Assembly (NCBI RefSeq): GCF_009930815.1
Contig: NZ_CP022222.1
Location: 3,328,501 to 3,392,500 of the forward strand
Length of the DNA stretch: 64,000 bases
DNA from: Bradyrhizobium sp. CCBAU 051011
Lineage (GTDB): Bacteria; Pseudomonadota; Alphaproteobacteria; Rhizobiales; Xanthobacteraceae
Direction: 5' to 3'
A model generated the notes under the pieces. The model was not told the origin of the DNA. It made no database searches and worked only from the letters and a program-made list of their open reading frames with translations. The position numbers were made by a program, and so were the translations under genes. Positions 4,052 through 46,881 of the stretch are shown piece by piece (positions within the stretch are counted from its first letter, which is position 1; each line of letters starts with the position of its first letter).

Positions 4052-5454
4052 ATGAGCGATACTACCACGACCGTTGACCGCGCCAAGCGCGGACGCAGCG
4101 GCAGCGTCATCCTAACGGACCGCAGGTGCGGAAAGCGCGTCGCCAACCGTACCAAGATTTACGACCGCAGATGCCCAGGTCTCTACGTCTCCATCATCCC
4201 GGCAGGCGTGGCCACACTCTCGTTCAAGTTCACCGATCCGGGAACCGGCAAGCAGCGCTCGACCACGCTCGGCATCTTCAACCCGGAGACCTTCACTGTC
4301 GAGCACGCGCGCAGCCGGGTCTATGCGCTGAAGGCGCTCGATCCGGCGGCGCTGGTCAATCAACTGCGCTAGCACCGGGTCACCAAAGGCAAGCACGGCA
4401 AGACGGTGGCCGAGATTATCAAACTGCGCATCAACTGGATGCAGCAACTGGAGCGGAAGGCCGATGGCGAGATGCGGCCCCGCATCGAAAGCTGGCGCTG
4501 CACCGAAGGCCACCTGAGGCGCTTGGTCGAGCCGAAGCTCGGCAAGATGATCGCAAGCGACGTGACACGGCAGGATATCGCTGAGTTGTCGAACGACATT
4601 CTCGACGGCAAGTACGGGAGGCGATCGGCCAGCAACGCCCGCCACATGCGCCGCGCCGTCTCGGGCCTTTACACATGGGCAGCGGAAGCGGGCCGCGACT
4701 TCGTCCCCGAAACCTGCCGCCCTACCTTCAATCTTCCGAAACTACCGAAGGAGCATGCCCGCGAACGGGTGCTGACCGAGGATGAAATCCGGATTTTCTG
4801 GCATGGCCTTGACCGCGACGACCTGCCTTGGGATCGCAAACGCGGCTGGCGCTCAAATTCGAATTGGTCACCATGCTGCGCTCACGCGAACTGCTAGCCG
4901 CACAGCGCAACGAACGGTTCGACCTCGACGGCAGCGCGCCTTACTTCCGCGTGCCTTCTAAGCGGGTCAAGAAGCGCCGCGTGATCGAGCAGCCATTGTC
5001 CGATCTGGCGGTCGAGATTATCCGCGAAGCGTTGGCCAGCGACGCACAACAGTTTGTTTTTGAAAGCCCGGTCTATCCGGGTCAACCGATCCACCGCATT
5101 GCGATGGCAACCGCGCTATGCGGCACCAAGCACGAGAAAAACCCGGACAAGAGCAAGAAATCGGGCCTTTGCGAATTGTTGGGCCTGAAGCCGTTCACGC
5201 CGCACGATCTGCGCCGCACCGCCGCTACGCTGGCAGGCGAACTCGGGTACTCAGACGCCGCGATCGCGAAATGCCTCGATCACGCCGTAACCAGGGATGA
5301 CGGCGAGAAGGTCAACAGGGTTACCGGCATCTATAATCAGTCGAAACGTGCCCAGCAGAAGCGCGCAGTGCTCGACGGCATCGCAGCCGAACTGCGGCGC
5401 ATCATCGCCGAACGAGCGCCGAAGGCCATCGCCAAGCTGCGGCTCGCGGCCTGA
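4052..5454 (+). pseudogene. Phage-type tyrosine integrase, broken by a nonsense codon and a frameshift
   Basis: Site-specific recombinase of the DUF4102/P4 integrase type. The N-terminal arm-binding domain ('TDRRCGKRVAN', 'GLYVSI', 'LSFKFTDPGTGK') runs to an in-frame TAG at 4370-4372. The same frame then continues with the core-binding domain to about 4838, where one A seems lost from an A-run (reads 'GATCGCAAACGC'). The catalytic domain continues in another frame to 5454, with 'MLRSREL' (Arg), 'HDLRRT' (H-x-x-R) and 'GIYNQS' (Tyr candidate). Joining the pieces gives a normal ~465-aa integrase. With two lesions it should be dead. It probably mobilised the island now at about 4050-7660. Confidence 0.85.
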
Positions 5455-5483
5455 TACACGAAAACTCCACCCAAATGACCCGA

Positions 5484-5512
5484 CCCGGTCAGCACGTCGC
5501 TGGCCGGGTTTT
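5484..5512 (+). terminator. Rho-independent terminator after the integrase remnant
   Basis: A 10-bp stem (CCCGGTCAGC / GCTGGCCGGG, one G-T pair) with a 5-base loop is followed by TTTT. It lies 30 bases past the integrase stop. Confidence 0.7.
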
Positions 5513-5665
5513 CATTTGAAATCTGGTGAAGCCCGCTGTTTGGTCGCTGGTGCGTTCGGCGCGCTGCGGGGACTATCGGCATCGGCTCCGGAGTAATGCA
5601 GCAGCAATGCGAGCAACTCCAAGCCGAGGCTCCCGCCGGCCGACGCGACGCGCAACATGGAGTAC

Positions 5666-5944
5666 TTAGGATTTCGAGCCGCTGGGGTGATTTGGGCGGC
5701 CACGGGCGCGGCCATTAATCTCGTTCTGCCAAGCGATGACTTCATCCTCGAACCAGACCTTGCGGTTCGGAGTTATGACGCTCCCGCGCGGAAACCTGCC
5801 TGTCTTTTCCATACGCCAAAGCGTCACCGGTGAGACCGGGACGATCGCCAGAACCTGCGCCTCGTTCAACATGCGTCGAGGTCCGGACTTGGTTGATGCG
5901 CTCTTGGCAAGCTCGTCCTCTACATGTTCGGATGCTTCGATCAT
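5666..5944 (-). CDS. AlpA/excisionase-like helix-turn-helix protein
   Basis: A 92-aa DNA-binding protein, last gene of a three-gene minus-strand operon. The segment 'MLNEAQVLAIVPVSPVTLWR' (about residues 25-44) is the helix-turn-helix of AlpA-type phage regulators and excisionases, and 'GRFPRGSVITPNRKVWFEDE' is the wing and second helix found in that family. The ATG at 5944 is chosen because it sits 10 bases after the upstream gene's stop. Beside a tyrosine-integrase remnant it most likely regulated or directed excision of the island. With the integrase broken the excision role is lost, though regulation may remain. Confidence 0.7.
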   Translation of the reverse strand: MIEASEHVEDELAKSASTKSGPRRMLNEAQVLAIVPVSPVTLWRMEKTGRFPRGSVITPNRKVWFEDEVIAWQNEINGRARGRPNHPSGSKS

Positions 5945-5954
5945 GGCGCGCACC

Positions 5955-6185
5955 TCACTTGAGACCGACACTAGTTTTTTCTTGCTCGGCGATCCAAGCG
6001 AGCAATGTGCTGCGGCGACCACAGATAACGTCGCCGAGCCGAAACAGCGGCAGTTCCGAATGGGCTGCCAAGTGGTAGACGCGCCGACGTTTGGCTGCGG
6101 AGCCGAATATAAAGCGCGCGATTTCTTCTGCACGTTCGAGCAGATCGTCAGCGATGCACTCGTTATCACGCGCCATCATGGTCAC
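5955..6185 (-). CDS. Small HTH-like DNA-binding protein of the phage-like island
   Basis: A 76-aa protein with the pattern 'AEEIARFIFGSAAKRRRVYHLA' followed by 'LPLFRLGDVICGRRSTLLAWIAEQE', resembling short DNA-binding proteins next to rhizobial integrases: a core that reads position-specific sequence through 'FRLGDVICGRRSTL'. It starts 2 bases after the stop of the upstream gene and ends 10 bases before the AlpA-like gene, so the three are one operon. An internal ATG (residue 4) is an alternative start. Its role is inferred from family and position: regulation of island genes or an excision accessory factor. Confidence 0.6.
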   Translation of the reverse strand: MTMMARDNECIADDLLERAEEIARFIFGSAAKRRRVYHLAAHSELPLFRLGDVICGRRSTLLAWIAEQEKTSVGLK

Positions 6186-6187
6186 CC

Positions 6188-6772
6188 TTATGTCCGGAGA
6201 ACGTTGCCGACCGCAAGGATCGTCCGCTCGGTGATCCTTGTTCTTTCCCTGCGGTCACCAGCAGCGGCTGATAGCTGTTGCCGGCGATCCTCGAAAGAGA
6301 TGTAGTCGTTTCGGCTCCCAGCCCAAACTCCTAAGACCACCGAAGGAACCGGTTTCTCAAATTCAATGTCGAGCCTATAGGCCTCGTCGAGAAACAGTTT
6401 TCTGCCGAGAATATGGCGGCGCGTTCCTAGGAGCGCGACGACCTTCATCATGTAGTGCGCCAAGCGCTCCTGCTTAGCCGCTCCAATCATCTCTTCCAGT
6501 TCGCTGCCGAATTCGCGCGTTCGCTGCCGCTGAGCTTTGAGCGCGCGGTATTGCGTGACAGTGGTCGACGCGGTGCGCGCCGTATCTGCCATGTTCGCCG
6601 CGATCAACAAGTTCGCCGCGTCCTGCTCTGACATTTGCGCAGCCGAAGTTCCTCGCCCCGAAGTTCGAATAAAGCCATCTTCGCGAACAGCGCGTGCGAT
6701 CGCGCCCACGCGCTCCGCGTCGATCCCTTCCGCCGTCGCTATCGCTGTAACCAAATCGCTAAGTGTCGCCAT
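6188..6772 (-). CDS. Conserved hypothetical protein of the phage-like island
   Basis: A 194-aa protein, first gene of the minus-strand island operon. I do not recognise a named family. The N-terminal third ('LVTAIATAEGIDAERVGAIARAVREDGFI.TSGRG') looks like a compact helical domain, and 'MSEQDAANLLIAANMA' resembles a segment in small phage and island proteins that accompany DNA-binding regulators. The rest is mixed helix and strand without membrane segments or a signal peptide. It is divergently arranged with the YdaU-type gene; the 200-base gap between them should contain both promoters. A regulatory or DNA-packaging-related role is possible, but nothing here proves it. Confidence 0.5.
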   Translation of the reverse strand: MATLSDLVTAIATAEGIDAERVGAIARAVREDGFIRTSGRGTSAAQMSEQDAANLLIAANMADTARTASTTVTQYRALKAQRQRTREFGSELEEMIGAAKQERLAHYMMKVVALLGTRRHILGRKLFLDEAYRLDIEFEKPVPSVVLGVWAGSRNDYISFEDRRQQLSAAAGDRRERTRITERTILAVGNVLRT

Positions 6773-6976
6773 GACAAGCCCCCATTAGTAAACATTGCAA
6801 ATGGGCGGGAGGCGTGTCAACCTCCATCAGGTAAAATACCAGATGGCGAGTGACGTTAAAAATGGTGCCGCCCATTCCGGACCGAGAAGCTTCGGACAAA
6901 AGATCCGCCGGCTGTGATGCGAGCGGGACACTCCCGCAGCGCACTGCAGCCTGAAACGAAAGAACGCTACCGTGCC

Positions 6977-7661
6977 ATGAGCAAGTTGCCTTCTTTGCCT
7001 TTGTGGGTCGACGAGTGGACGGCGAGTACGCGCCATCTCAACTATGAACAGCGAGGCATTTATTTGAGCTTGCTGATCCTGATGTGGGAAAAGCCGCGTG
7101 GCCGAATTCCGAACGACGACAAATGGCTCGCGCATCACCTCGCAATGTCGGTCGCCAAGGTCGAAAAGATTGTGCGCCCGATCATCGGGGACCTCTGCAA
7201 ATCGTCCGGGAATTGGATCACGCAGGAGCGCTTGAGGAAGGAGTACGATTACGTGCGGCAGAAGATAGAAGCGAATAGGGCTTCCGCTAAACGTCGGCAG
7301 GACAAGGAGAAAGGTGCATCCGATCGCAATGCGATCGCAGGTGCGAAGGCAATGCTACCTACACCTAAACTTACACCCACACCCACAAGGAAAGAGAGAG
7401 GCTCTCTCTGAGCCGGTTGGCAAAAGATCAAACGGCCAATCGGCGTTCCTGCCCACGAACTGGAAGCCGTCACAGGCTGACGTCAGATTTGCGCTAGAGC
7501 GCGGCTGGACGAACGAGCGGATCAATTCCGTCGCCGACAAATTCCGCACCTATTACCAAACCCGCCCGATGACGACCACGGATGTCTCGGCGACGTGGCG
7601 AATGTGGGTGTGTCGGGAGAGAGATGAGCCCGAGGAAGAAAAGCCAATGGTGATCATATGA
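6977..7661 (+). pseudogene. YdaU/DUF1376-type phage replication protein, frameshifted in a CT repeat
   Basis: Replication-initiation-like protein found in prophages. The N-terminal domain starts at the ATG of 6977 with 'LPLWVDEWTASTRHLNYEQRGIYLSLL', a classic DUF1376 start, and 'DKWLAHHLAMSVAKVEKIV'. The frame stops at 7411. The expected C-terminal domain ('FLPTNWKPSQADVRFALERG' ... 'WRMWVCRERDEPEEE') continues in the next frame to 7661. The break lies in a CT repeat at 7402-7409; restoring two bases gives 'GSLSEPVGK' across the join. A slipped-strand 2-base deletion therefore split the gene. Two separate proteins are less likely, because the C-terminal half has no good start. Confidence 0.65.
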
Positions 7662-7695
7662 CCGCGCTGAGCGGATCGATCTCTCCTCGATCACG

Positions 7696-8934
7696 TTGCG
7701 CCAGGCGAAGGCGGCGACACTGCGAGACGTCTTGAACTCAAAGCCCTCTAACTTGCCGCACAAGGCGAACAGAGCATCGGGAGACATCGCCGATCTGGAT
7801 AGAGAGCCGTCCCTCGAGCTGTGGCCGTTCCTGGGCGCCGGCGCGGCGGTCTTGATACTGCCGGACGAGACGGCGCGCGACGGGCGATTGCTCGACGATT
7901 TTCTCCGGCGGAACGGCCCGACCCACGCCTGGCTGCCGGCGCCGCACTGCGAGAGGCTGGCGCGGCTCGAGAATGAGACGCTGCGTTTCGTGCTGACCTG
8001 CGGCGGCCATGTGGGAGCGCTGCGGCGGGGCAAGTACGAGCTTGTGCGATGCGCCGGCCCCGCCGAGACCACGGTGTTGGCGACGAGCCTCCCGGTGCGC
8101 GGCACCGGGGCGGGCGACAACATCGGCAAGCCGGCCGGGTTGTCACATATCCGGATACTCGGCCATGACGACGGCATGTTGCCGGTCGGCGTGAGCGGCG
8201 AGCTGTGCGTCGCCGGCGCCGGCGTTGCGGCCGGCTACTGGGACGATGCGGAGACCACGTCGCGCCAATTCGAGCCGTGTCCGCATGTGGCGCCGGGCCG
8301 GATGTTTCGCACCGGCCAGTCGGCGCGCTGGCTCGCCGACGGTACCATCGCGTTGACCGGGCCGGTGGTGGAGGCGAGCATCGACGGCCACCGCGTGTCG
8401 CTTGCCGAGATCGAGTGCCTGCTGCGATCGAACGGCGCCATCGACGACGCCGTCGTGGTATTCGACGACCGCGATCCGCTGAGCGAGCGGCTGGTCGCCT
8501 TCATCGTGGTCCGCGGCACCGGGCCGGTGCCGGCCCAGTCGTTCGTCCAGACGGTGTGGCACCACCTCGCGCAATGGCTGCCGCCGGCGATGATTCCCGA
8601 CACCTACATGCAGGTCGGCGCGATCCCGCGCGACCTCGACGGGCGCGTGCAGCGCGAGCAGTTGCCGCTTCCCGAACTGGCGTCGGAGCCGGCCGCAGCC
8701 TCGCCCCCGTCCGTTGCCAAGGTGGCCGAGATCGTCGGGGACGTGCTGGGCGTCGACACGATTTCCCCGGACGAGGACCTGTCGGCGCTCGGTATGACAT
8801 CCTTGGCGGCCGCGCGGCTGGCGACCCGCATCCATTCGAGCTTCGGCGCCGCACCCGACCTCTGCCGGATTCGGTCGGCCCCGACGATCTCGGCCATTTC
8901 CAACGCCATTGAGGCATCTGGGAGCCCGTCATGA
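7696..8934 (+). CDS. N-terminally truncated, catalytically degenerate NRPS adenylation domain fused to a carrier (T) domain
   Basis: First gene of the biosynthetic operon (412 aa). Residues from about 40 match the second half of an NRPS adenylation domain ('LELWPFLGAGA', 'GPAETT' at 121-126 for A5, 'GELCVAGAGVAAGYW', 'FRTGQ' at 204-208 for A7, 'HRVSLAEIE' for A8). The first half with the ATP loop is absent, the A7 Asp is Gln, and the A10 segment reads 'DGRVQR' (315-320) without the catalytic Lys. The C-terminus is a clean carrier domain with 'LGMTSL', Ser369 being the expected phosphopantetheine site. Residues 1-38 do not look like an A domain and seem to come from the neighbouring island. 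No good start exists at the junction (TTG 7696 is the only early one), so expression is uncertain. ATGA overlap with the next gene. Confidence 0.75.
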   Translation: MRQAKAATLRDVLNSKPSNLPHKANRASGDIADLDREPSLELWPFLGAGAAVLILPDETARDGRLLDDFLRRNGPTHAWLPAPHCERLARLENETLRFVLTCGGHVGALRRGKYELVRCAGPAETTVLATSLPVRGTGAGDNIGKPAGLSHIRILGHDDGMLPVGVSGELCVAGAGVAAGYWDDAETTSRQFEPCPHVAPGRMFRTGQSARWLADGTIALTGPVVEASIDGHRVSLAEIECLLRSNGAIDDAVVVFDDRDPLSERLVAFIVVRGTGPVPAQSFVQTVWHHLAQWLPPAMIPDTYMQVGAIPRDLDGRVQREQLPLPELASEPAAASPPSVAKVAEIVGDVLGVDTISPDEDLSALGMTSLAAARLATRIHSSFGAAPDLCRIRSAPTISAISNAIEASGSPS

Positions 8935-10058
8935 GCACCGCAACCGCCGTGCAGGATGCCATTCGCGACGTCGTCGACCTGCACCGAGATCGGCTCGAGC
9001 TGCTGCGCGCTCGCCCGGAACCGAAGCTCGGATTCGTGTCGATTCACACGCCGGAGGAAATTCTTCTCGCCGCGGGAGCGATCCCGTTTCGCATCACCGG
9101 GGAGCAAGCGAACACGAGCGATGCCGCCGCGCGACTGAGCGCCAACTACTGCTCGTACGTGCTGGGCTGCCTAAGCGAAGGGATGGACGGCGTCCATGAC
9201 TTCGCCGACGGCGTCGTGTTCGTCAACGGTTGCGACATGCGCAAGCGCCTGTGCGAGGCGTGGGCGTGCGATGTGCCCGGCCAGTCGGCGTATTATCTCG
9301 ATCTGCCCGGGGATGCCAGCGACCTTTCTAAGGCCTACTTCGCGACCCAACTGCGCAAGCTGATCGGGGCGCTCGAGCGGCGCTATGACCGCAAGATCGG
9401 CGACGAGGCGCTCGGGCGGGCGATCGAGACGTGCAACCGGTTGCGCGCGCTGGTACAGGAACTCGATCGCCATGCCCGCAACGGCAGGCGGGTGCTGTCG
9501 GGCGGCGAAGCGATCGGGGTCGTCAAGGCGGCGACCACGGGGCTCAAGGACGCGTTCAACCACCGCGTCGCGACCCTGCTCGACGCGCTCAAAGCCTCCG
9601 ACTCCCTGCCCCGGCGGCGGCCACATCGCGTCATGATCTGCGGCAGCTACTTCGATCACCAGGGTATCATCGACACCATCGAGGACACCGGCGCCGAAGC
9701 GATCTGCGCCGACATCAGCAACGGAGCGAAGTACTTCGAAGGCCGCATCGATCCCGACGCCGAGCCGGTCGCGGCGATCGCCGCCTACTATCTCGACAAG
9801 CACACGAGCGCGCGCCGCCTCGATACCGATGTGAGGATGCGCCACATGCTCGAGCTGGTGCGCGCCTACGGCGTCGACTCGGTCATCTATTACGTTCTCA
9901 AGTTCTGCGACACCAACCTGCACGAATACCCCTACATCCAGCAGAGGCTGCAGGCCGAGAAGATCCCGGTGTTGTTCATCGAAGGCGAACGCAACGCGAC
10001 GAACATCGCCGGCACGCGAACGCGAATTCAGACTTTTCTGGAATCCCGGATGACATGA
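8931..10058 (+). CDS. 2-hydroxyacyl-CoA dehydratase / benzoyl-CoA reductase-like subunit (HgdB/BcrC family)
   Basis: A 375-aa member of the HGD-D family (PF06050 type): iron-sulfur enzymes that make ketyl or aryl radicals on thioester substrates with an electron from an ATP-driven activator. Cluster-ligand candidates are Cys74 ('NYCSYVLGC'), Cys101 ('VNGCDMRK') and Cys326 ('LKFCDTN'), the same three-block spacing as in HgdA/HgdB. The C-terminal 'GTRTRIQTFLE' matches the family's closing motif. It overlaps the carrier gene by ATGA and is followed one base later by the second subunit. Substrate is unknown. The operon context suggests an acyl group on a carrier protein rather than CoA, which is inference. 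Confidence 0.85.
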   Translation: MSTATAVQDAIRDVVDLHRDRLELLRARPEPKLGFVSIHTPEEILLAAGAIPFRITGEQANTSDAAARLSANYCSYVLGCLSEGMDGVHDFADGVVFVNGCDMRKRLCEAWACDVPGQSAYYLDLPGDASDLSKAYFATQLRKLIGALERRYDRKIGDEALGRAIETCNRLRALVQELDRHARNGRRVLSGGEAIGVVKAATTGLKDAFNHRVATLLDALKASDSLPRRRPHRVMICGSYFDHQGIIDTIEDTGAEAICADISNGAKYFEGRIDPDAEPVAAIAAYYLDKHTSARRLDTDVRMRHMLELVRAYGVDSVIYYVLKFCDTNLHEYPYIQQRLQAEKIPVLFIEGERNATNIAGTRTRIQTFLESRMT

Positions 10059-10059
10059 G

Positions 10060-11289
10060 GTGACGCCCGTGAGAACCGAGAGACGCGAAGGAGAGCGCGC
10101 AGCGCAGTATCAGAACCTGCTCGGCCTGATGGGCGAGCCGCATGCCGATGAAGCCGAGGCCCCCCAGGCCCTGCGCAAGGCAATCCGCATGCGCTCGGTG
10201 ATGAACTGCCATCGCCTAGCCGACGCCTACCGCGACGACTCCAAGGTCGCGTACGTGTCCGAGCAGTTTCCCACCGAGGTCGTGTTCGCGGCGGGCGCGA
10301 TGCCGTGGAACATCGAATCAATGGCGATCATGCTCGCCCAGTCGGTCGACGTGAACCGCATCTTCCAGCTGACGCAGGAGAAGGGGCTGTCACGCGACAT
10401 CTGCTCGTTCCTGCGCGGGCCGTACGGCATGATGCTGGCCGATTGCTATCCGACGCCGGACTTCGTCCTGACCAACGACCAGCCGTGCGAGGGCCTCGCC
10501 AAGGAGATGTGCCTCGCCGGGAAGCGATTCAACGTGCCGGTGATCGCGCTAAACACCCCGGAATCGCTCGACGAGGACGCAATCGGCTACGTCGCAGGGC
10601 AGATCGAGCGGATGCGAGAGAGGATGGCGGCGGAGCTCGGACTCGAGGGGAGTTCCGAGTCCCTGCAGCGGGCGGTCGCGTTCTCCAACGAGGCCCGCGA
10701 GTACTACCGCAAGACGGTGGCACTGCTCGAGACCCACAAACTTCCCGGCGTCTCGCGCGAGCTGCAGGAGATCTTCGGGATGAATTATTTCGGCCCGCGG
10801 GAGAACGTGACCCTGTGCAAGGCACTGTACCAGGCTGCGGCCGAGCTCGCCAAGGACGCGCCGGGCAGCGGCAAGCGCGTGATGTGGATCGGCCAGGTCC
10901 CGGAGGAGGCACACGAGCTGCTGCGCCACATGAGCCGCGTGGTCGAGATCCTCTACTGGGCGCCGCTGTGGAACGCCAATCTGCGCAGCCTCGACGAGAC
11001 CCGGCCGCTGCACAGCATCGCCGAGCGGGCGATCCTCTACCACTGGAATGCGGAGCGGATGTCGGTCGAGCTGGAGCGGATCTGCGATCGCTTCTCCGTC
11101 GAAGGCTTCGTGATCGTCAACGTGTGGGGATGCCGGAACATCGCCGGCATCAGCCCGGTGCTCAGGGACTTCGCCGCAAGGCGCAAGATCAGGCACATCA
11201 CGCTCAACATCGACCTGGTCGACCGCAACAACTACGCGTTCAACCACGTCAAGAACCGGGTCGACGCTTTTCTCGAGTTGATGCAATAG
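10060..11289 (+). CDS. 2-hydroxyacyl-CoA dehydratase-like second subunit
   Basis: A 409-aa paralogue in the same HGD-D family, expected partner of the previous product in a heterodimer. Candidate cluster cysteines are Cys115 ('SRDICSFLRG'), Cys143 ('NDQPCEG') and Cys358 ('NVWGCRN'). 'YVSEQFPTEVVFAAGAMPW' near residue 65 is the conserved N-terminal strand and helix ('P.EIl.AaG..P') of the family. Translation starts at GTG 10060 or GTG 10069, right behind the previous stop, so coupling is likely. With the activator gene next, these three genes form a complete archerase-type system. Such systems are oxygen-sensitive and typical of anaerobes, which is notable in this background. Confidence 0.85.
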   Translation: MTPVRTERREGERAAQYQNLLGLMGEPHADEAEAPQALRKAIRMRSVMNCHRLADAYRDDSKVAYVSEQFPTEVVFAAGAMPWNIESMAIMLAQSVDVNRIFQLTQEKGLSRDICSFLRGPYGMMLADCYPTPDFVLTNDQPCEGLAKEMCLAGKRFNVPVIALNTPESLDEDAIGYVAGQIERMRERMAAELGLEGSSESLQRAVAFSNEAREYYRKTVALLETHKLPGVSRELQEIFGMNYFGPRENVTLCKALYQAAAELAKDAPGSGKRVMWIGQVPEEAHELLRHMSRVVEILYWAPLWNANLRSLDETRPLHSIAERAILYHWNAERMSVELERICDRFSVEGFVIVNVWGCRNIAGISPVLRDFAARRKIRHITLNIDLVDRNNYAFNHVKNRVDAFLELMQ

Positions 11290-11309
11290 GCGCGTGGAGG
11301 CGCAACAAC

Positions 11310-12092
11310 ATGATCACGGTAGGTATCGACGTCGGCTCGCTGTCGACGAAGTCCGCTCTCATGAACAATCGCCTGGAGGTGATCGCATCGGACGTGGTGC
11401 TGACCGGAGGCACCAACCGGGCGGCGGCCGAGACCACCTACGAGCAGGTGCTGGCCAAGGCCGGGCTCAGGCGCCACGACGTCGGCTTCGTGGTCACGAC
11501 CGGGTACGGGCGGGAGAACATCACGTTCGCCGACAAGCACCTCTCGGAGATCACCTGCCACGGGCTCGGCATGCACCTCATCAATCCGGAGATCCGCACG
11601 ATCCTCGAGATCGGCGGCCAGGACAGCAAGGCGATCCGGATCGACGAGCACGGGAACGTCGAGAACTTCGCCATGAACGACAAGTGTGCGGCCGGCTGCG
11701 GCAGGTTCCTCGAGGTCACCGCGCGGGCGATGGGGGTCCCACTCGACCAGCTCGGCGAGGTGTCGGCGCGCTCGCAGAACACCGTGCGGATCAGCAATAC
11801 CTGCACGGTCTTTGCCGAGACCGAGGTCGTCTCCCTGGTCGCGGTCGGGACACCCATTCCGGACATCGTGCGCGGCGTCCACAACTCGATCGCGGCGCGC
11901 GCCGCCTCGCTGCTGCGCACCGTGACGATCAGCGGCCGGGTCGGGATGAGCGGGGGAGTGGCGCTCAATTCCGGCGTCGTGCGGGCGCTCGCCGACGCGC
12001 TCAAGACCGACATTTACGTGGTGGACAACCCGCAGGTCAGAGGCGCGATCGGCGCGGCGTTCATCGGCCAGCGGCGCTCGCGCGCCGCCTAG
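11310..12092 (+). CDS. Activator ATPase of 2-hydroxyacyl-CoA dehydratase type (HgdC / BcrA-BadF family)
   Basis: A 260-aa ASKHA-fold ATPase whose homodimer holds one [4Fe-4S] cluster and injects an electron into the dehydratase/reductase on ATP hydrolysis. 'GIDVGSLSTKSAL' is the phosphate-1 loop, 'ILEIGGQDSKAI' (residues 98-110) the connecting motif, and Cys126 ('NDKCAAGCGRF') and Cys165 ('SNTCTVFAE') fall at almost the same positions as the two HgdC cluster cysteines. 'GRVGMSGGVALNSGVV' is the adenosine motif. The ATG at 11310 is chosen because GGAGG lies about 8 bases upstream; longer frames extend back over the previous gene and are shadows. Length is normal. Confidence 0.9.
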   Translation: MITVGIDVGSLSTKSALMNNRLEVIASDVVLTGGTNRAAAETTYEQVLAKAGLRRHDVGFVVTTGYGRENITFADKHLSEITCHGLGMHLINPEIRTILEIGGQDSKAIRIDEHGNVENFAMNDKCAAGCGRFLEVTARAMGVPLDQLGEVSARSQNTVRISNTCTVFAETEVVSLVAVGTPIPDIVRGVHNSIAARAASLLRTVTISGRVGMSGGVALNSGVVRALADALKTDIYVVDNPQVRGAIGAAFIGQRRSRAA

Positions 12093-12110
12093 CGCGCCAC
12101 GGAGGCGCTC

Positions 12111-13538
12111 ATGAACCTGTGTGGCACGAAGATGGGCCGTTACCAGGCGATCGGCCGGCACAACATCGGCAAGCTGCCGGAATGGGCCGCCCTCGACCCC
12201 GACCTGCGCGAGGCCATCCAGGTCGTCGCGCAGGTGCTGCCGTTCCGCGCCAACCGTTACGTGGTCGAGAGCCTGATCGATTGGTCCAAGGTCCCCGACG
12301 ACCCGATCTTCCGGCTAATCTTCCCGCAGCGAGAGATGCTCGACGCCGACGAGTTCGGCGAGGTGAAGCAATGCCTGCGCGAGAACGACAGCGAAGCACT
12401 GGCCAGGACCGTCCGCCGCATCCGGCTGGCGCTCAATCCGCATCCGGACGGGCAGCTTACCCACAACGTGCCGATTGTCGCGGGACGGCCCCTCTGGGGC
12501 CTGCAGCACAAGTACCGCGAAACCGTGCTGTTCTTTCCGTTTCAGGGACAGACGTGCCATTCCTACTGCACGTATTGCTTCCGCTGGGCGCAGTTCGTCG
12601 ACATGGACGGCCTCAAGTTCGCTCGCAAGGATGCCACCGACCTGGTCGCCTATCTCAAGGTCCACCCCGAAGTGACCGACGTGCTCGTCACCGGCGGCGA
12701 CCCCATGGTGATGCGCGCGCCGGTGCTGCGGAAGTACATCGAGCCGCTGCTCGATCCCGCGCTCGAGCACGTGCAGACGATCCGCATCGGTACCAAAGCG
12801 GTCGCCTCGTGGCCGTATCGCTTCGTGTCGGACGACGATGCGGACGACTGCCTGCGGCTGTTCGAGCAGATCGTCGCCGCCGGGCGGCATCTCGCCGTCA
12901 TGGGGCACTACTCGCATCCGGCCGAGCTCGCGCCGGAGATCGCCCGCGAGGCCATCCGCCGCATCCGCGCGACCGGCGCGCAGATCCGCATGCAGACGCC
13001 GCTGATCCGCCATGTGAATGACAACCCCGAGGCGTGGGCCGCGCTGTGGCGGACGGGCGTGCGGCTCGGGCTTGTTCCCTACTACATGTTCGTCGAGCGG
13101 GACACCGGCGCGCGCAAGTACTTCGAGGTGCCGCTGGTGCGGGCGCTCGACGTCTATCGGCAGGCGCAGGCGCGTGTGTCCGGCCTCGGTCGCACCGCGC
13201 AGGGCCCGTCGATGTCGGCGTTCCCTGGCAAGGTGCGGATTCTCGGCTCGGTCACGCTGCGCAGCCTGCTCGACGACTGCGCGGCCGCCGCGCTGGCGGC
13301 GCTGCCGGCGCGTGCCGGGGCGGCCGATCCGGACACGCCGATGCTGATCTGCGATTTCCTCCAGGCGCGCGATCCGGCCTTCGATCGCACGCTCTTCGTC
13401 GCCGCGTGCGACCCGGACGCGACCTGGCTCGATCATCTGCGGCCCGTCGGGAGGCGAGATCGGTTCCCGTTCGACTGCTGGACCGACAACGGCCGGAGCC
13501 ACCGGCTGCAGTCGGAGACGGAGTGTCTGCTGCATTGA
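12111..13538 (+). CDS. KamA-type radical SAM aminomutase
   Basis: A 475-aa radical SAM enzyme of the lysine 2,3-aminomutase type, moving an amino group between C2 and C3 with SAM, a [4Fe-4S] cluster and PLP. The cluster motif is C149-x3-C153-x2-C156 ('TCHSYCTYCFRW'). Other KamA hallmarks are 'DVLVTGGDP' near 190-198, 'GHYSHPAEL', 'MQTPLIRHVND', 'PYYMFVERDTG' (323-333), and 'FPGK' with Lys374 as the likely PLP lysine. The 'CHSYC' form and 'FRWAQFVD' differ from classical KamA ('CRHC'), marking a separate subfamily. GGAGG sits 7 bases before the ATG. Substrate is not readable; lysine, another amino acid, or a carrier-bound aminoacyl group are all possible. Confidence 0.85.
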   Translation: MNLCGTKMGRYQAIGRHNIGKLPEWAALDPDLREAIQVVAQVLPFRANRYVVESLIDWSKVPDDPIFRLIFPQREMLDADEFGEVKQCLRENDSEALARTVRRIRLALNPHPDGQLTHNVPIVAGRPLWGLQHKYRETVLFFPFQGQTCHSYCTYCFRWAQFVDMDGLKFARKDATDLVAYLKVHPEVTDVLVTGGDPMVMRAPVLRKYIEPLLDPALEHVQTIRIGTKAVASWPYRFVSDDDADDCLRLFEQIVAAGRHLAVMGHYSHPAELAPEIAREAIRRIRATGAQIRMQTPLIRHVNDNPEAWAALWRTGVRLGLVPYYMFVERDTGARKYFEVPLVRALDVYRQAQARVSGLGRTAQGPSMSAFPGKVRILGSVTLRSLLDDCAAAALAALPARAGAADPDTPMLICDFLQARDPAFDRTLFVAACDPDATWLDHLRPVGRRDRFPFDCWTDNGRSHRLQSETECLLH

Positions 13539-13639
13539 AGACGTACGACAAAGCCCCCGGCCAATTCCTCAGTGTGAGTGGCGCGCGAGCAGTGCCGCCA
13601 TCGCGGCCCTTGGGGCGATATCCTGAGAGGAGCGAAGCC

Positions 13640-14380
13640 ATGTCCTTCTCCAACGTCTATGACGATGCCGCGCGTGCCGAGGCGTACGCGCGGTTGGAGT
13701 TCCCCTGTACGTACTATCTCGCCTACCGCGATCTGCCGACCATCATCGCGGCCCATGTAAAGGGTGGTACGGCACTCGACTTCGGCTGCGGCGCTGGCCG
13801 TTCGACCCGCTTCCTCAAGAAGCTCAAGTTCGACGCCATCGGGATTGACATCTCGCGGAGCATGATCGCAGCTGCCAAGAAAGCTGATCCGGACGGAGAC
13901 TATCGCCTGGTCGGCAACGGCGATTTCAGCGCGTTCGCGCCCGGATCGCTCGACCTCGTGCTTTCGGCTTTCGCATTCGACAATATTCCCGACCTCGCCA
14001 ACCGGCGCGCCTTGCTGGAAGGCCTGAGACGCCTGCTGCGGCCGGACGGGCGCGTCATCATGCTCGGCTCGACGCCGGAGATATACAGGCACGAATGGGC
14101 GTCGTTCACAACTGAGGCCTTTCCCGAGAACCGCGTGGCGAAAAGCGGCGAGGTGGTCCGCATCGTCATGACTGACGTTGGTGATTCGCGGCCCGTAGTC
14201 GACCTCGTCTGGTCTCACCAGGACTACCTGGACCTGTTTGCGGCCAGCGGGCTCGTGTTGCGCGCCGAGTACCGCCCGCTCGGGCGCGCCGACGAGCCTT
14301 ATTCCTGGGTCAGCGAGATGACGGTCGCGCCGTGGTTCATCTACGTGCTGGAGCGGAGCGGCTCATTTTCCTGCGGCTAG
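13640..14380 (+). CDS. Class I SAM-dependent methyltransferase
   Basis: A 246-aa methyltransferase, last plus-strand gene of the biosynthetic operon. 'GGTALDFGCGAGRSTRFL' (about 42-59) is motif I, 'AIGIDISRSMIAAA' carries the SAM-binding Asp, 'GSLDLVLSAFAFDNI' is motif II, and 'LRRLLRPDGRVIML' the strand-5 motif. The 'YDDAARAEAYARLEFP' start occurs in small-molecule methyltransferases. The ATG at 13640 is chosen over earlier in-frame codons because GAGAGGAG lies just upstream and the preceding frame overlaps the aminomutase. About 100 bases separate it from the aminomutase, so it may also have its own transcript. It ends in an 18-base convergent overlap with the Ppant transferase gene. It could tailor the operon's product; the acceptor is unknown. 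Confidence 0.8.
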   Translation: MSFSNVYDDAARAEAYARLEFPCTYYLAYRDLPTIIAAHVKGGTALDFGCGAGRSTRFLKKLKFDAIGIDISRSMIAAAKKADPDGDYRLVGNGDFSAFAPGSLDLVLSAFAFDNIPDLANRRALLEGLRRLLRPDGRVIMLGSTPEIYRHEWASFTTEAFPENRVAKSGEVVRIVMTDVGDSRPVVDLVWSHQDYLDLFAASGLVLRAEYRPLGRADEPYSWVSEMTVAPWFIYVLERSGSFSCG

Positions 14381-15082
14381 ATTCCGCGCCGGGAGCCATC
14401 GTGCGACCACGCGCCAGTCGGAGCCGCGCATTGCGACCGCGCCGTAGTATCCGTCGTATCCGTCGGGGACTTCTATCTGGACAACAAACCAGTTTGTCAT
14501 GATCGGCGGCTCACCGACGGGAATCACGGGCCGCGGCGCCGGCGCAGAGGATGGAACAGTGAAACAATCGAGCGGAAGCCCGAGACCCTGTCCCGCAGCC
14601 TTCACGACCGCTTCCTTCATGGTCCAGATGCGAAAGAACTCGTCGGTCGGATCGGTCGCGGCGCGCACGCGCTCCGCCTCGTTTTTCGAAAAGAAACGCG
14701 CCGCGATCGCCGCCATTTCGGGAATGTGATGCTTGGCCTCGATGTCGACCCCGACTTCGTTCGCCGCTAGCGCGATCGCGACGACCTCGCCTGAATGGCT
14801 CACGTTGAAGTGGATGTCCGACTGCTGCAGGAAGGGTTTGCCGTTCTCCCGCAGATCGAAACGAAACGCTTGCGGCTCGACGCCCAGATGCCGGGACAAG
14901 AGGCGTCTCAACGCGGCGCGGCCGACGATGCTTCTGCGTCGATCCTCGTCACGATGAAAACGGGCCGCACGATCCGCTTCGGCTGAAGTGAGAAAAGTCA
15001 AGAGGCGCGCAACAACGGATGGCGTAACATCGATCGAGACGAAGAGAAGTTCCACAGCGTTTCGCGCGAGGGCCATGGTCAT
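14363..15082 (-). CDS. 4'-phosphopantetheinyl transferase, Sfp type
   Basis: Transfers phosphopantetheine from CoA to the Ser of carrier domains. In the 239-aa form from ATG 15082, 'FNVSHS' (92-97), 'VGVDIE' (110-115) and 'WTMKEAVVKA' (153-162) hold the family's CoA and Mg2+ residues, including Asp113, Glu115 and Glu157. 'GRAALRRLLSRHLG' and 'NGKPFL' are typical of the first half. It faces the operon and overlaps the methyltransferase end by 18 bases. The obvious client is the carrier domain at 7696-8934 (Ser369). An in-frame ATG at 15112 is less likely as a start. Catalytic residues are intact, so the locus kept its activating enzyme though its adenylation half is lost. Confidence 0.9.
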   Translation of the reverse strand: MTMALARNAVELLFVSIDVTPSVVARLLTFLTSAEADRAARFHRDEDRRRSIVGRAALRRLLSRHLGVEPQAFRFDLRENGKPFLQQSDIHFNVSHSGEVVAIALAANEVGVDIEAKHHIPEMAAIAARFFSKNEAERVRAATDPTDEFFRIWTMKEAVVKAAGQGLGLPLDCFTVPSSAPAPRPVIPVGEPPIMTNWFVVQIEVPDGYDGYYGAVAMRGSDWRVVARWLPARNLAAGK

Positions 15083-15308
15083 CCCGCGGGTCGTCAACTG
15101 GGAACGTGGCATCCATCGCTCCGCGCGCAGGGTCGATCGGATATTTGGAACATTTTCGCACGCGCAAGCAAGTGCGGATTCCGATTTGTTCCGGCCGGCA
15201 TTCCGATTTGAAGCCGGCCGGGGTTTTGGAAGTCGGCGTTTTCGTTTGGGTCAGTTCTTCAGGCATCAAGTCCCTCGTTGATCAACCAGGAAGCGGAGAG
15301 AACTGACC

Positions 15309-16758
15309 ATGCGACAGATACGACAGATGCTTCGGCTTGCCCGTGATGGGGTGAGCGCCCGGGAGATCGGGCGCACGCTCGGTGTGGCGCGCAGCACCAT
15401 CCAGGACAATCTCAAGCGTGCCTCGACTGCCGGGCTGGCGTGGCCTCTGGCGGGCGATCTGACCGATGCCGTTCTTGAACAACGTCTGTTTGCCCATGCC
15501 GGCGTCAGGCGCGGCTTCCGCCGGCGCCGGGAACCGGATTGGGCCTCGCTGGTGTGTGAGCTGAAGCGGCTTGGCGTCAATCTGATGGTGCTGTGGGAGG
15601 AGTACCGGGCGGTCCACCCCCAAGGATATGGCTACAGCCGGTTCTGCGATTTATTCCGGAAATTTGTGCGGCGGCTGTCTCCGACGATGCGGCAGCACCA
15701 TCCGGCCGGCGACAAGGTCTTTGTCGATTACTCCGGCAAGAAGATCATGATCGTTGATCGCAAAACTGGGGTTGTGCGCGACGCGGAGATCTTCGTCGCC
15801 GTGCTTGGCGCCTCGAATTACACGTACGCCGAGGCGAGCTGGACGCAGACACTACCGGACTGGATCGAGGCCCATGTCCGGATGTTCCGGTTCTTTGGCG
15901 GGGTGCCCGCCTCGTCGTCCCTGACAAAGTCCGGCGTGCACCGGCTTCGTTCTATGACCCTGAAATCAATCGCAGCTACGGGATGATGGCGTCCCATTAC
16001 GGCGTTGGCATCCTTCCGGCACGGCCAAGAAAGCCCCGGGATAAGGCAAAAGTGGAAGCCGGAGTGCGTTTTGCCCAGACCTATATCCCTCGGGTGGCTT
16101 CGCGGGCAGACCTTCTTCTCCCTGGCCGAGGCGAAAGCGGCAATCACCGCCGCGCTGGAGCGCATCAACGCCCACGTCATGCGCCGGATCGGCGTCAGCC
16201 GCCGACAATTGTTCGAGACCGTCGAAAGGCCTGTCCTGGCGCCGTTGCCGGATGCTGACTATCAGTTCGCGGAATGGCCCTTGGCCCGCGTCTCGCTTGA
16301 TTATCACGTCGAGGTCGACGGCTTCTTCTACTCAGTTCCACACGGCCTGATCCGGGAGCAGGTCGACGTTCGCGCCACCACCCGGACCATCGAGTTGTTC
16401 CATCGGGGTTTGCGTGTTGCTGCTCACCAGCGCCGTTATGGCGGCCGCCGGCACGGCACTGATCCCGATCACATGCCCAGTGCGCATCGGCGTTACGCCG
16501 AGTGGACTCCCGATCGATTCCGGCGCTGGGGGCGGTCGATCGGGCCCAACACCGAGGGGCTAAGTCCTCGCCATTTTGGCCAATCGGCCTCATCCCGAAC
16601 GCGCCGAGCTGATCGCGGCCCGCGCGGTCGCGGTCAGCGCACTGACCTACAAGAGCATCGCCTCCATCATTGCCAACAAGCTCGAACGCAGTTCTCGCGA
16701 TACCGAGGACGCGGTCATCGAACATCCCAATCTGCGCGGCCCCGGTTACTTCCATTGA
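15309..16758 (+). pseudogene. istA: IS21 transposase IstA, multiple frameshifts
   Basis: The N-terminal ~200 residues are intact: 'MRQIRQMLRLARDGVSAREI' (helix-turn-helix), 'HPQGYGYSRFCDLFRKF', 'GDKVFVDYSGKK' (first catalytic Asp) and 'EIFVAVLGASNYTYAEASWTQ'. Near 15925 the frame breaks in 'GGVPASSS'; the expected continuation ('SFYDPEINRSYGMMASHYGVGILPAR', containing the 'PRKPRDKAKVE' motif with the last catalytic Glu) lies in another frame from about 15945. A further shift near 16100 leads to 'VDGFFYSVPHGLI', and the C-terminus reappears in a third frame ending at 16758 ('NLRGPGYFH'). At least three lesions inactivate it. Confidence 0.8.
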
Positions 16759-16772
16759 AAGGATTATCCAGC

Positions 16773-17009
16773 ATGCTGACCCATCCTACCCTCGACCTGC
16801 TGCATAGCCTCGGTCTCCACGGTATGGCCAAAGGCTTCAAGGACCTCGATGCCCAGTCCGAAGCGCGCAGCCTCGAACACGCCGAATGGCTGGCTTTGCT
16901 CCTGGAACACGAGAAAACGCTGCGCCAGCAAAAGTTGCGACGCTCTCGGCGCGGTCCGAATCCGCGCTGGATACTGATGGATCGAAGAGAGCCTGTTAAA
17001 AGGCCGTAA
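16773..17009 (+). pseudogene. istB: IS21 helper ATPase IstB, truncated
   Basis: Starts at ATG 16773, 15 bases after istA, with 'LLHSLGLHGMAKGFKDL' and 'HAEWLALLLEHEKTLR', the typical N-terminus of IstB. Similarity ends near residue 55 and the frame stops at 17009, about 79 codons in all against a usual ~250. The AAA+ ATPase domain with its Walker motifs is missing. Confidence 0.75.
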
Positions 17010-21290: not shown

Positions 21291-21375
21291 GCCGGTCGTC
21301 TATCCCTCGGCCGCTCCATTTCCGTAACGTGACGGTGCCGACTTGACGAATCTCGGCGAGCGACCCCTATATGTA

Positions 21376-21572
21376 GGTCTGTTACGGTCTTCTATTCCAA
21401 CATCTCGGAGGATGGAAGCTAAGAGGGAACCCGGTGCGCCGGCAACGGCTATTCCGGGGCTGCCCCCGCAACTGTAAGCGGCGAGCGGTTGTCATCATGG
21501 TCACTGGCGCGACAGCGCCGGGAAGGCCGACAGCTGCAGCGACCCGCGAGCCAGGAGACCTGCCGCGACAGA
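21376..21572 (+). promoter_or_regulatory. Cobalamin riboswitch upstream of nrdAB
   Basis: Conserved cobalamin-aptamer blocks occur in order: 'AAGAGGGAACCCGGTG', 'CCCCCGCAACTGTAAGCGG', 'CACTGG', 'CGGGAAGGC', then 'GAGCCAGGAGACCTGCC' ending at about 21564. The spacing is normal for the class. The NrdA ATG lies at 21683, so the remaining ~110 bases are the expression platform and leader. In this class adenosylcobalamin binding usually reduces expression. B12 control of a B12-independent ribonucleotide reductase is known from other bacteria that also own a B12-dependent one. Confidence 0.93.
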
Positions 21573-21682
21573 ACGAACGTCCTCGGGCGGGGTGCCCGGT
21601 GGGGCGCTTGCAGCTGGGAACATTTGCCCGGTCTTCTTGCAAGTTGTCCGCGGCCCCAGCCCCAAACATCGCGGGGTTGCCG

Positions 21683-23617: not shown

Positions 23618-24681
23618 TCGATTTCTCGGCCGTCGATCCGCGCACGCTGATCGGCAAGGGACGCGTCGGCCTCCTGGACTCGACCGGCAGCTATGACGTC
23701 GATCGCTACGCCTGGGCCTACGAGTTCTGGAAGCGCCAGCAGCAGACCCACTGGATGGGCGAGGAGGTGCCGCTCGGCACCGACCTCAAGGACTGGGCGT
23801 CGGACCGCGTCACCGCCAACGAGCGCGCGCTGCTCACCCAGATCTTCCGTTTCTTCACTCAGTCGGACATCGAGGTCGGCGACAACTATCTCAAGCGCTA
23901 CATCCCGATTTTCCAGCCGCTCACCGTTCAGATGATGATGGCCGCCTTCACCAACATGGAGACGGTCCATATCGACGCCTATGCGCTGCTGCTCAAGACG
24001 CTCGGCATGCCCAAGACCGAGTTCGAGGCATTCCGCGGCTATGCGGAGATGCGCGCCAAGGCGGATTACATGCACGAGTTCGGCGTTGACACCGTGTCCG
24101 ATGTCGCGCGCACGCTGGCAATGTTCGGCGCCTTCACCGAAGGTATGGCGTTGTTCGCGAGCTTCGCCATGCTGCTCAACTTCCCGCGCCACAACAAGAT
24201 GAACGGCATGGGACAGATCGTAAGCTGGTCAGTGCGCGACGAGAGTCTCCACTGCGAGGGCGTCATCAAGTTATTTCACGAATGGCACCGGGAAACCGGC
24301 GCGGTGACGCGCTCGGTCCGCGACGACATTGTCGACGTCGCCAAGACCATGGTGAAGCTGGAGGAGAACTTCGTCGATCTCGCCTTCGGCCTCGGCACGA
24401 TCGAGGGCATGCGGCCTGAGCAGATCCACACCTACGTCCGCTATGTCGCCGACTGGCGACTGACCCAACTCCGGATTGCCCCGGTCTTCGGCTTCTTCGA
24501 GGCTAAGGAGGGCGGGTTCTCCCAGCTCAAGGCGCATCCGCTGCCGTGGCTCGTCGAGATTCTCAATGGCGTCGAGCACGCCAACTTCTTCGAGCAGCGC
24601 GCCACGGAGTACTCCAAGGCAGCGAGTCGCGGCAGCTGGGACGGCGAAGACGGGGTGTGGGCGGCTTTCGGCCGTATGTAG
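23608..24681 (+). CDS. nrdB: Ribonucleoside-diphosphate reductase class I, beta subunit
   Basis: Radical-generating ferritin-like subunit (357 aa). Metal ligands and the tyrosyl radical site are visible: 'QSDIEVGDNY', 'NMETVHIDAYALLLK' (Glu, His and the radical Tyr in the E-x2-H-x3-Y spacing), 'FTEGMALFASFA' and 'SWSVRDESLHCEGVIKLFHEW'. The ATG at 23608 overlaps the nrdA end and has GAGG upstream; a GTG at 23599 is possible but less likely. Tyr is present, so a class Ia/Ib-type radical rather than a Tyr-less class Ic form is expected. Transcribed with nrdA under the cobalamin riboswitch. Confidence 0.95.
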   Translation: MSVIDFSAVDPRTLIGKGRVGLLDSTGSYDVDRYAWAYEFWKRQQQTHWMGEEVPLGTDLKDWASDRVTANERALLTQIFRFFTQSDIEVGDNYLKRYIPIFQPLTVQMMMAAFTNMETVHIDAYALLLKTLGMPKTEFEAFRGYAEMRAKADYMHEFGVDTVSDVARTLAMFGAFTEGMALFASFAMLLNFPRHNKMNGMGQIVSWSVRDESLHCEGVIKLFHEWHRETGAVTRSVRDDIVDVAKTMVKLEENFVDLAFGLGTIEGMRPEQIHTYVRYVADWRLTQLRIAPVFGFFEAKEGGFSQLKAHPLPWLVEILNGVEHANFFEQRATEYSKAASRGSWDGEDGVWAAFGRM

Positions 24682-31652: not shown

Positions 31653-31852
31653 AACCGTTCGAACATGTGCAGCCAGAGTTCACAATTTCGCCCAAGCCAC
31701 GACCTCAAGAGGACAGAGCGCCGCAAGTACGCAAACAGACCGCAAGATTTGGACGCTGCGACTATGTTGGGCCTGCGGCTTGGCTCCCCTTCAAATGCTC
31801 GCTATAGTTGCACCCAAAGAAGAGCCGCAACGGCCTTTACAGGGGATGGGGC

Positions 31853-40010: not shown

Positions 40011-40079
40011 ACGAAGAAGTTGCGGCTGCCGGCATTTTGGGGAGTCACAACGCATTCAATCTGTGATTCACTGCTTCGC

Positions 40080-46830: not shown

Positions 46831-46881
46831 GCGCGATCAGCCTTTCGCCCAAAAAACGCCCTAACCGGGGGCCTTCGCCGG

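Follow-up and report, generated by a model that had tools for sequence, protein, structure and literature searches.

Gene content of the locus

Here we describe seven adjoining genes of Bradyrhizobium sp. CCBAU 051011 (genome of 9.1 Mb, one contig) in which nonribosomal peptide synthetase (NRPS) sequence is followed by the predicted parts of a ketyl-radical enzyme. The genes lie within a 64,000-nucleotide stretch of contig NZ_CP022222.1 (positions 3,328,501 to 3,392,500), which we refer to in its entirety as the window and whose numbering is used throughout. The first open reading frame (ORF1) formally spans 7696-8934 on the plus strand; Pfam and DNA comparison place its homologous part at 7808-8934 and identify it as the 3' remnant of an NRPS gene, comprising part of an adenylation (A) domain and a carrier domain. 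The AMP-binding match (3.4e-15) covers profile positions 222-384 of 384 only, while the PP-binding match (PF00550, 2e-10), at approximately 8719-8910, contains the serine of an NRPS carrier domain within the motif ALGMTSLAA.

Downstream on the same strand are two genes for HGD-D subunits: HGD1 (8931-10058; Pfam HGD-D 6.2e-69), of the beta, BzdN or HadC type by its relatives in the PDB, and HGD2 (10060-11289; 2.2e-41), of the alpha or HadB type and by homology the active-site subunit. These are followed by an ATP-driven activator, or archerase, of the HgdC/HadI type (11310-12092; BcrAD_BadFG 5e-63, TIGR00241 5.5e-73), a KamA-family radical S-adenosylmethionine (SAM) enzyme (12111-13538) and a class I SAM methyltransferase (13640-14380; Methyltransf_11 8.9e-16). 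The activator scores above the TIGR00241 cut-off (245.5 vs 125.4 bits), and both matches of the KamA-like protein are under their curated cut-offs (Radical_SAM 1.5e-4; TIGR00238 2.3e-36, 125.4 vs 199.2 bits). A convergent gene on the minus strand encodes an Sfp-type 4'-phosphopantetheinyl transferase (14363-15082; ACPS 3.5e-17); the longest ORF extends to 15112 (14363-15112), with 15082 as the position of its second in-frame ATG, and the gene overlaps that of the methyltransferase by 18 bases. ORF1 and HGD1 overlap by 4 bases, and the remaining gaps are 1 (HGD1-HGD2), 20 (HGD2-activator), 18 (activator-KamA) and 101 bases (KamA-methyltransferase). ORFs and domain profiles thereby confirm the gene order, strands, gaps and overlaps of the original prediction, which had been made from the sequence alone and took the set for a self-contained operon.

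Relationship of HGD1, HGD2 and the activator to known enzymes

The two HGD-D subunits are encoded together, and their cysteines have aligned counterparts in HadC/BzdN and HadB; by sequence, each subunit has the three ligands of a [4Fe-4S] cluster. In HGD1, C74, C101 and C326 are invariant in 18/18 cluster copies, the window included, and C115, C143 and C358 of HGD2 are invariant in 28/28 (the window and 27 of the 86 relatives described below). The candidate cluster cysteines of the activator, C126 and C165, at the positions of known cluster ligands, are likewise invariant in all 18 copies, again with the window included. Matches above 250 bits were aligned for HGD1 and the activator, above 200 bits for the KamA-like protein and above 150 bits for the methyltransferase. 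Domain content, cysteines and activator together assign the three predicted proteins to the HGD-D/archerase family, with scores below every NCBIfam HGD-D cut-off listed: HGD1 reaches 127.4 of 700 bits for HadC, 133 of 453.8 for BzdN and 113.5 of 421.15 for BcrC, and HGD2 reaches 38.4 of 750 for HadB, 25.6 of 486.55 for BcrB and 20.1 of 448.6 for BzdO.

The best NCBIfam model of both subunits is double_cubane (HGD1 8.7e-47, HGD2 1.3e-15), as would be expected if the pair were a double-cubane-type small-molecule reductase or a mere electron donor for other enzymes of the cluster. However, the scores of 159.9 and 57.3 are far under the cut-off of 350, and HGD1, when aligned to 6eno, lacks the cysteines of the 'tfc' and 'eetc' segments of the double-cubane cluster protein (DCCP), which presumably bind the cluster. 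DCCP is moreover a homodimer, whereas two distinct subunits are encoded here. We rejected the identification as a double-cubane protein on the basis of the scores and the missing extra cysteines, and judge a function of this kind very improbable.

Among PDB relatives, HGD1 is closest to BzdN (3.2e-36), a subunit of benzoyl-CoA (coenzyme A) reductase, followed by HadC (4.4e-27). An AlphaFold model of HGD2 (predicted local distance difference test, pLDDT, 87.7; predicted template modelling score, pTM, 0.89) finds HadB chains best by E-value (TM 0.78-0.79), with MbdO and BzdO nearly equal (query TM 0.77-0.79) and DCCP next; identity in these fold alignments is 16-18% to MbdO and BzdO, and likewise to HadB. 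The pair might thus be an enzyme like the class I benzoyl-CoA reductases (BzdNO, MbdNO) that dearomatises or reduces the ring of a carrier-held aromatic unit, and a dearomatised product was among those first proposed. The closeness of HGD1 to BzdN leaves room for such a product, but it is not favoured, as HadB comes first for HGD2 in both the sequence and the fold comparison, if narrowly. HGD2 is also distant from the benzoyl-CoA reductases in sequence, and no aromatic degradation genes were noticed in the clusters described below, although no profile search for them was made. We regard a ring-reducing function as improbable. A catabolic benzoyl-CoA-type system in this genome was rejected, the HGD1 and HGD2 of the window being its only two HGD-D matches.

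The resemblance to the 2-hydroxyacyl-CoA dehydratases (HadBC/HadI, HgdAB/HgdC and lactoyl-CoA dehydratase) extends to the two homologous HGD-D subunits with three cysteines each, the activator with two conserved cysteines and the first rank of HadB for the HGD2 model. Unlike these enzymes, the pair stands beside NRPS and carrier genes and HGD2 has residues of its own. Position 68 of HGD2, which corresponds to HadB Ser37, is Glu in 27/28 sequences and Asp in one, and the third cysteine lies in a WGCR motif in 28/28, vs [RK]SCK in five of eight distant subunits (rows of locus L076 that are not alpha-type HGD-D being ignored). HadB Glu55 is matched by E86 of HGD2 in 28/28; a Glu at this place also occurs in 6/8 of the distant subunits and is hence not specific. 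We assume both HadB residues to belong to the active site. In a midpoint-rooted tree with several long outgroup branches, HGD2 forms a clade of its own (support 100/100, branch length 2.99; 30 rows, for part of which the genome context is known, vs 8 outgroup rows). Scored with a single profile, distant HGD-D proteins do not exceed 151.9 bits, and the HGD2 encoded by the second copy in a Spirochaetales metagenome-assembled genome (MAG) reaches 619.7 bits.

ORF1 is the end of a truncated NRPS gene

The window resembles Bradyrhizobium jicamae DNA between 7808 and 15067 (89.7%), and the similarity ends abruptly on the upstream side. The TTG start of ORF1 at 7696 falls within 7696-7807, a segment that does not resemble the B. 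jicamae contig, and ORF1 ends in the final 374 codons of an NRPS that is intact in B. jicamae, where the whole cluster of approximately 28 kb is kept. ORF1 is therefore a truncated gene, the 3' end of the last NRPS module. We accordingly rejected a free-standing A-T/HGD operon, because its first gene is a fragment: of the self-contained operon, the genes are present, but they form the 3' end of a larger cluster. ORFs that appear integrase-like and phage-like by eye lie at 4052-7661, directly upstream of the cut at 7808, and possibly caused the truncation. A second match to the 168 bases at 7640-7807 was looked for in the genome and none was found.

In the A domain of the window, the RTGD motif is without its Asp and motif A10 without its Lys, so that it does not have the motifs of a functional A domain. 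Both residues are lost in 5/5 copies of this terminal domain, the window included, and motif A3 is disrupted in the four copies that have it, namely the full-length ones of B. jicamae, a Syntrophobacterales MAG, a Rhodospirillales MAG and Rhodopseudomonas rhenobacensis. As the degeneracy is present in full-length copies too, it is an old property of the module and not damage from the cut. The NRPS sets of these four clusters have five A domains each, of which the last is degenerate; from their codes we take the preceding ones to be one without assignment, Val/Ile-like, Asn-like and Leu-like (the code table leaves out the A-domain pieces of a neighbouring NRPS, G390_1). In Paenibacillus tianmuensis, the second NRPS has two condensation (C) domains, one A domain and two carrier stretches, which fits C-A-T-C-T. 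How the A domain appears in full length, a point raised by the original prediction, varies: it is degenerate in all four proteobacterial/Syntrophobacterales clusters and has normal motifs in P. tepidiphilus, and the clusters do not all end in an inactive or absent A domain. In the C domains of NRPS modules 1 and 2 of intact clusters, the Gly of HHxxxDG is replaced in 12/12 examined, by Ala (11) or Glu (1).

Distribution of the pair and its association with carrier proteins

To place the locus among its relatives, HGD2 was used as a query against 5.8 billion proteins; among the 7998 candidates that shared most words and were scored, at least 86 are HGD2 relatives. A scan of approximately 85,000 species genomes returned 25 loci, of which 18 are close relatives (35-93% identity) and 7 are distant. 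An NRPS ORF is present in 16 of the 18 close loci, and the other two (L008 and L022) are cut by a contig end within 150 bases of HGD2, bearing out the expectation that the pair occurs with carrier domains and not solely with CoA ligases. No match to an A-PCP (peptidyl carrier protein) query was found in any of the seven distant HGD-D loci (L025-L031, 6-21 kb each). Eleven of the close loci are from Paenibacillus, and as many of these are alike there are fewer independent groups than 18; besides Paenibacillus there are four proteobacterial/Syntrophobacterales loci, a fragment from a Thermoanaerobaculia MAG and two contigs of one Spirochaetales MAG. The association of archerase genes with carrier proteins is thus conserved, and the cluster itself occurs sporadically across Proteobacteria, Syntrophobacterales, Spirochaetales and Paenibacillus. 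Within 385 genomes of the class, HGD2 found the window's own full-length match and three weak partial ones; within the genus it found full-length matches in 2/265 genomes, plus one weak partial match, the copy on the B. jicamae contig being 93% identical. A plasmid search returned one record (23% identity).

The Spirochaetales MAG (L047, L022) has two HGD1 copies on one contig and one HGD2 copy on each of two contigs. Among the 86 HGD2 relatives, several pairs apparently come from one contig, a hint that a contig may encode HGD2 twice and that the archerase perhaps acts at two steps.

Seven of the clusters were read further upstream, with families assigned by profile in the Rhodospirillales cluster and by tblastn in the others. 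All seven contain a standalone carrier, a standalone A domain, a PP-loop enzyme, the asparagine synthetase-like AsnB, an acyl-CoA dehydrogenase resembling acryloyl-CoA reductase and a KamA enzyme, and in each the order is carrier, standalone A domain, PP-loop enzyme, AsnB, acyl-CoA dehydrogenase, NRPS and HGD1-HGD2-activator. SGGKDS of the PP-loop enzyme, Cys2 and SGGLDS of AsnB, and IGDGTSEIQ of the dehydrogenase are each kept in 7/7. In the Rhodospirillales cluster, the best family matches, all under cut-off, are DltC for the carrier (2.3e-8), the N-acetyl sugar amidotransferase family TIGR03573 for the PP-loop enzyme (1.2e-38), acryloyl-CoA reductase for the dehydrogenase (4.4e-121) and acyl-CoA ligase TIGR03098 for the standalone A domain (1.3e-124). 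Because the A domain of the ORF1 module is degenerate, its carrier is not the obvious site of loading, and the seven clusters each have a separate carrier and A protein.

The code of the standalone A domain is DGSH[ST]IMRSK in all seven clusters and keeps Asp235, which is typical of amino acid activation and usually missing from aryl-acid A domains. This residue speaks against a carrier-held aromatic substrate, as does the best match of the dehydrogenase, although its second match is cyclohexane-1-carbonyl-CoA dehydrogenase (1.3e-92).

The same genes bear on whether the archerase acts on an ordinary CoA thioester, in which case the standalone 'A domain' would be a CoA ligase, its product would be released and then activated by the NRPS, and the adjacent carrier would serve something else. 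The DltC-like carrier is small and lies directly upstream of the standalone A domain in 7/7 clusters, the code retains Asp235, and the ORF lists of the clusters, which were not profile-searched for a CoA transferase, showed no evident one. The best score of the standalone A domain is nevertheless to a family of acyl-CoA ligases, and the characterised relatives described in one review act on CoA thioesters (PMC11574389). On balance we consider the CoA route unlikely.

Several observations on neighbouring genes are added here. A conserved protein of approximately 140 residues (L038, 12829-13260, with relatives in L032-L041) stands at the start of the four proteobacterial/Syntrophobacterales clusters, and the one copy scanned has no Pfam or NCBIfam match. 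A thioesterase and a MATE exporter are found in the two Paenibacillus clusters read upstream, and a MATE gene also occurs on the second Spirochaetales contig. On a Streptomyces plasmid (L096) and a Roseovarius plasmid (L097), PP-loop domains related to the cluster enzyme form part of NRPS-type proteins; the former has genes for AsnB and an acyl-CoA dehydrogenase nearby, and there are a standalone A domain, a carrier and an acyl-CoA dehydrogenase in the latter, with no HGD-D gene annotated in either stretch. A Blastochloris PP-loop protein gave no match at E 1e-40 in 397 genomes of the order, a set that holds no known positive genome.

The KamA-family enzyme

The CxxxCxxC motif of the KamA-like protein (C149/C153/C156) and K374, by alignment the candidate lysine that binds pyridoxal phosphate, are invariant in 6/6 copies and place the protein in the KamA family of lysine and glutamate 2,3-aminomutases. 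It departs from lysine 2,3-aminomutase in having Arg330, again in 6/6 copies of the window type, at the position of Asp293, the residue that presumably binds the lysine side chain. Because of this replacement lysine is unlikely as a substrate, and we rejected it. Together with the arginine in the standalone A-domain code, Arg330 weakly hints at an acidic amino acid.

Four of the seven clusters have an enzyme of the window type, among them that of the Rhodospirillales MAG, where it is encoded upstream on the opposite strand and is 44% identical; the other three have a longer type that resembles glutamate aminomutase. Of the order A-T/HGD-D/HGD-D/activator/KamA given by the original prediction, the succession of HGD1, HGD2 and activator after the NRPS is thus conserved, but KamA is of two types and variable in place. 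In a protein search with the window enzyme, 7998 of 7999 scored candidates match KamA, a far wider spread than that of the clusters. Known members of the family use free amino acids, and since the window type is so common outside the clusters it would supply a free amino acid and not be tied to the carrier; the notion that KamA acts on a carrier-bound amino acid found no support.

State of the Bradyrhizobium copy

Pairwise dN/dS against B. jicamae is 0.155 for HGD1, 0.140 for HGD2, 0.067 for the activator, 0.210 for KamA, 0.214 for the methyltransferase, 0.256 for the Sfp-type gene and 0.339 for the A-PCP remnant, values that average over time before the cut and cannot date it as recent. They show purifying selection over most of the divergence from B. 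jicamae. Low values from HGD1 to the methyltransferase, together with the retained PCP serine, would be compatible with a remnant that still functions as a short pathway, using its own PCP once the neighbouring Sfp-type enzyme has charged it. Against this, the time before the cut is included in these values, the A domain is both cut and degenerate, and the genome has no match to the PP-loop enzyme at E 0.001 and matches the standalone A domain of the Rhodospirillales cluster at 30% identity at best (over 2-505). We find a working remnant quite improbable; the window copy is a truncated cluster whose upstream genes are gone and whose pathway as a whole has very probably been lost. Bradyrhizobium thus offers a case of a truncated cluster whose relative B. 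jicamae retains the complete version.

A possible ketyl-radical step on an NRPS carrier protein

In the known mechanism, an ATP-driven activator passes an electron to the cluster of the beta subunit and from there to that of the alpha subunit, where a ketyl radical anion is formed on the thioester and the C2 hydroxyl is lost (PMC11574389). Here the parts of an archerase have a carrier, a standalone A domain and an acryloyl-type dehydrogenase as neighbours, from which one would most simply infer a carrier-bound thioester. Taken as a whole, we would explain the locus as the 3' end of an NRPS cluster with a complete ketyl-radical enzyme predicted to act on a carrier-bound thioester, an explanation to which we give an even chance.

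Under this proposal, KamA would convert a free amino acid to a beta-amino acid, and the standalone A domain would load an amino acid onto the standalone carrier. The activator, using ATP, would push one electron via HGD1 to the cluster of HGD2. HGD2 would turn the carrier thioester into a ketyl radical anion and expel the C2 group, a hydroxyl or possibly ammonia, to leave an alpha,beta-unsaturated acyl thioester. This product might then be reduced or re-oxidised by the AcrC-like enzyme, with electron-transferring flavoprotein (ETF) where present, while AsnB and the PP-loop enzyme would install nitrogen. The finished unit would be joined to the peptide, in proteobacterial clusters perhaps via the terminal module with the degenerate A domain. 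A hydroxyacid-making dehydrogenase was not noticed in the ORF lists of the clusters, for which no profile search was made; a classical dehydratase would then have no explained source of its 2-hydroxy substrate, and an amino group might be lost instead. That HGD1 and HGD2 eliminate the C2 substituent, perhaps the amino group, of a PCP-bound amino acid, with the AcrC-like enzyme processing the resulting dehydro unit, is possible but doubtful.

Several observations weigh against the proposal besides this missing dehydrogenase and the best family of the standalone A domain. The methyltransferase has a relative in 4/7 of the clusters read and ETF-alpha/beta genes occur in 2/7, the two from Paenibacillus. 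KamA of Paenibacillus and Spirochaetales is of a different type, approximately 25% identical, and KamA is spread far more widely than the clusters. The last A domain of the long P. tepidiphilus NRPS has normal motifs, and the Spirochaetales NRPS has two C domains, one A domain and one carrier stretch. The proximity of HGD1 to BzdN, the near-equal fit of HGD2 to MbdO and BzdO and the Glu shared with distant subunits add to these points, and the dN/dS of 0.07-0.21 from HGD1 to the methyltransferase might point to a remnant that retains some function.

By analogy, the pathway would correspond to the reductive branch of amino acid fermentation, with its dehydratase and acryloyl-type reductase, in which a carrier protein replaces CoA. 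The kinds of enzymes known from the Stickland/acrylate branch (dehydratase, AcrC-type reductase and ETF) occur here together in one cluster, ETF-alpha/beta in the two Paenibacillus clusters read upstream. That branch differs from the clusters in that these have a standalone A domain and a DltC-like carrier, are embedded among NRPS genes and are without a noticed CoA transferase. In-trans loading of the SyrB1/SyrE type offers a second likeness, with separate A and carrier proteins that could keep an amino acid for tailoring and, in the proteobacterial clusters, a terminal module that has no working A domain; here, unlike there, the tailoring would be by ketyl-radical chemistry, and in the proteobacterial clusters no shuttle acyltransferase was identified.

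The enzyme families are known and their combination looks new. No description of an HGD-D/activator pair in an NRPS cluster, and no pathway with the same gene set, was found among the papers listed by searches of the open full-text literature, which mostly excludes subscription papers and does not include bioRxiv, in keeping with the original prediction. If the proposal holds, CoA-thioester fermentation chemistry has been moved onto an assembly line and has spread between phyla, probably by horizontal transfer. Archerases perform very hard one-electron reductions, and the cluster gives a means of finding out whether assembly lines can host ketyl-radical chemistry; it also points to an unknown peptide from Paenibacillus species that are available as isolates.

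Other features of the window

Elsewhere in the window, a Qat-type anti-phage defence operon occupies 31808-36790 on the plus strand (PADLOC QatA 6.4e-249, QatC 2.8e-176), in which the ORFs at 33787-34671 and 36023-36790, the latter TatD-like by eye, would by position be QatB and QatD. A cobalamin riboswitch (21368-21581, plus strand; Rfam 135.8 bits) adjoins what appear by eye to be downstream ribonucleotide reductase-like subunits, within the ORF at 21434-23617 and at 23599-24681. Two transposase-like ORFs of 482 aa on the plus strand (42942-44390 and 46988-48436) are nearly identical by eye, and further transposase-like ORFs, also recognised by eye, lie at 222-542, 15309-17009, 40020-41624 and 45782-46864.

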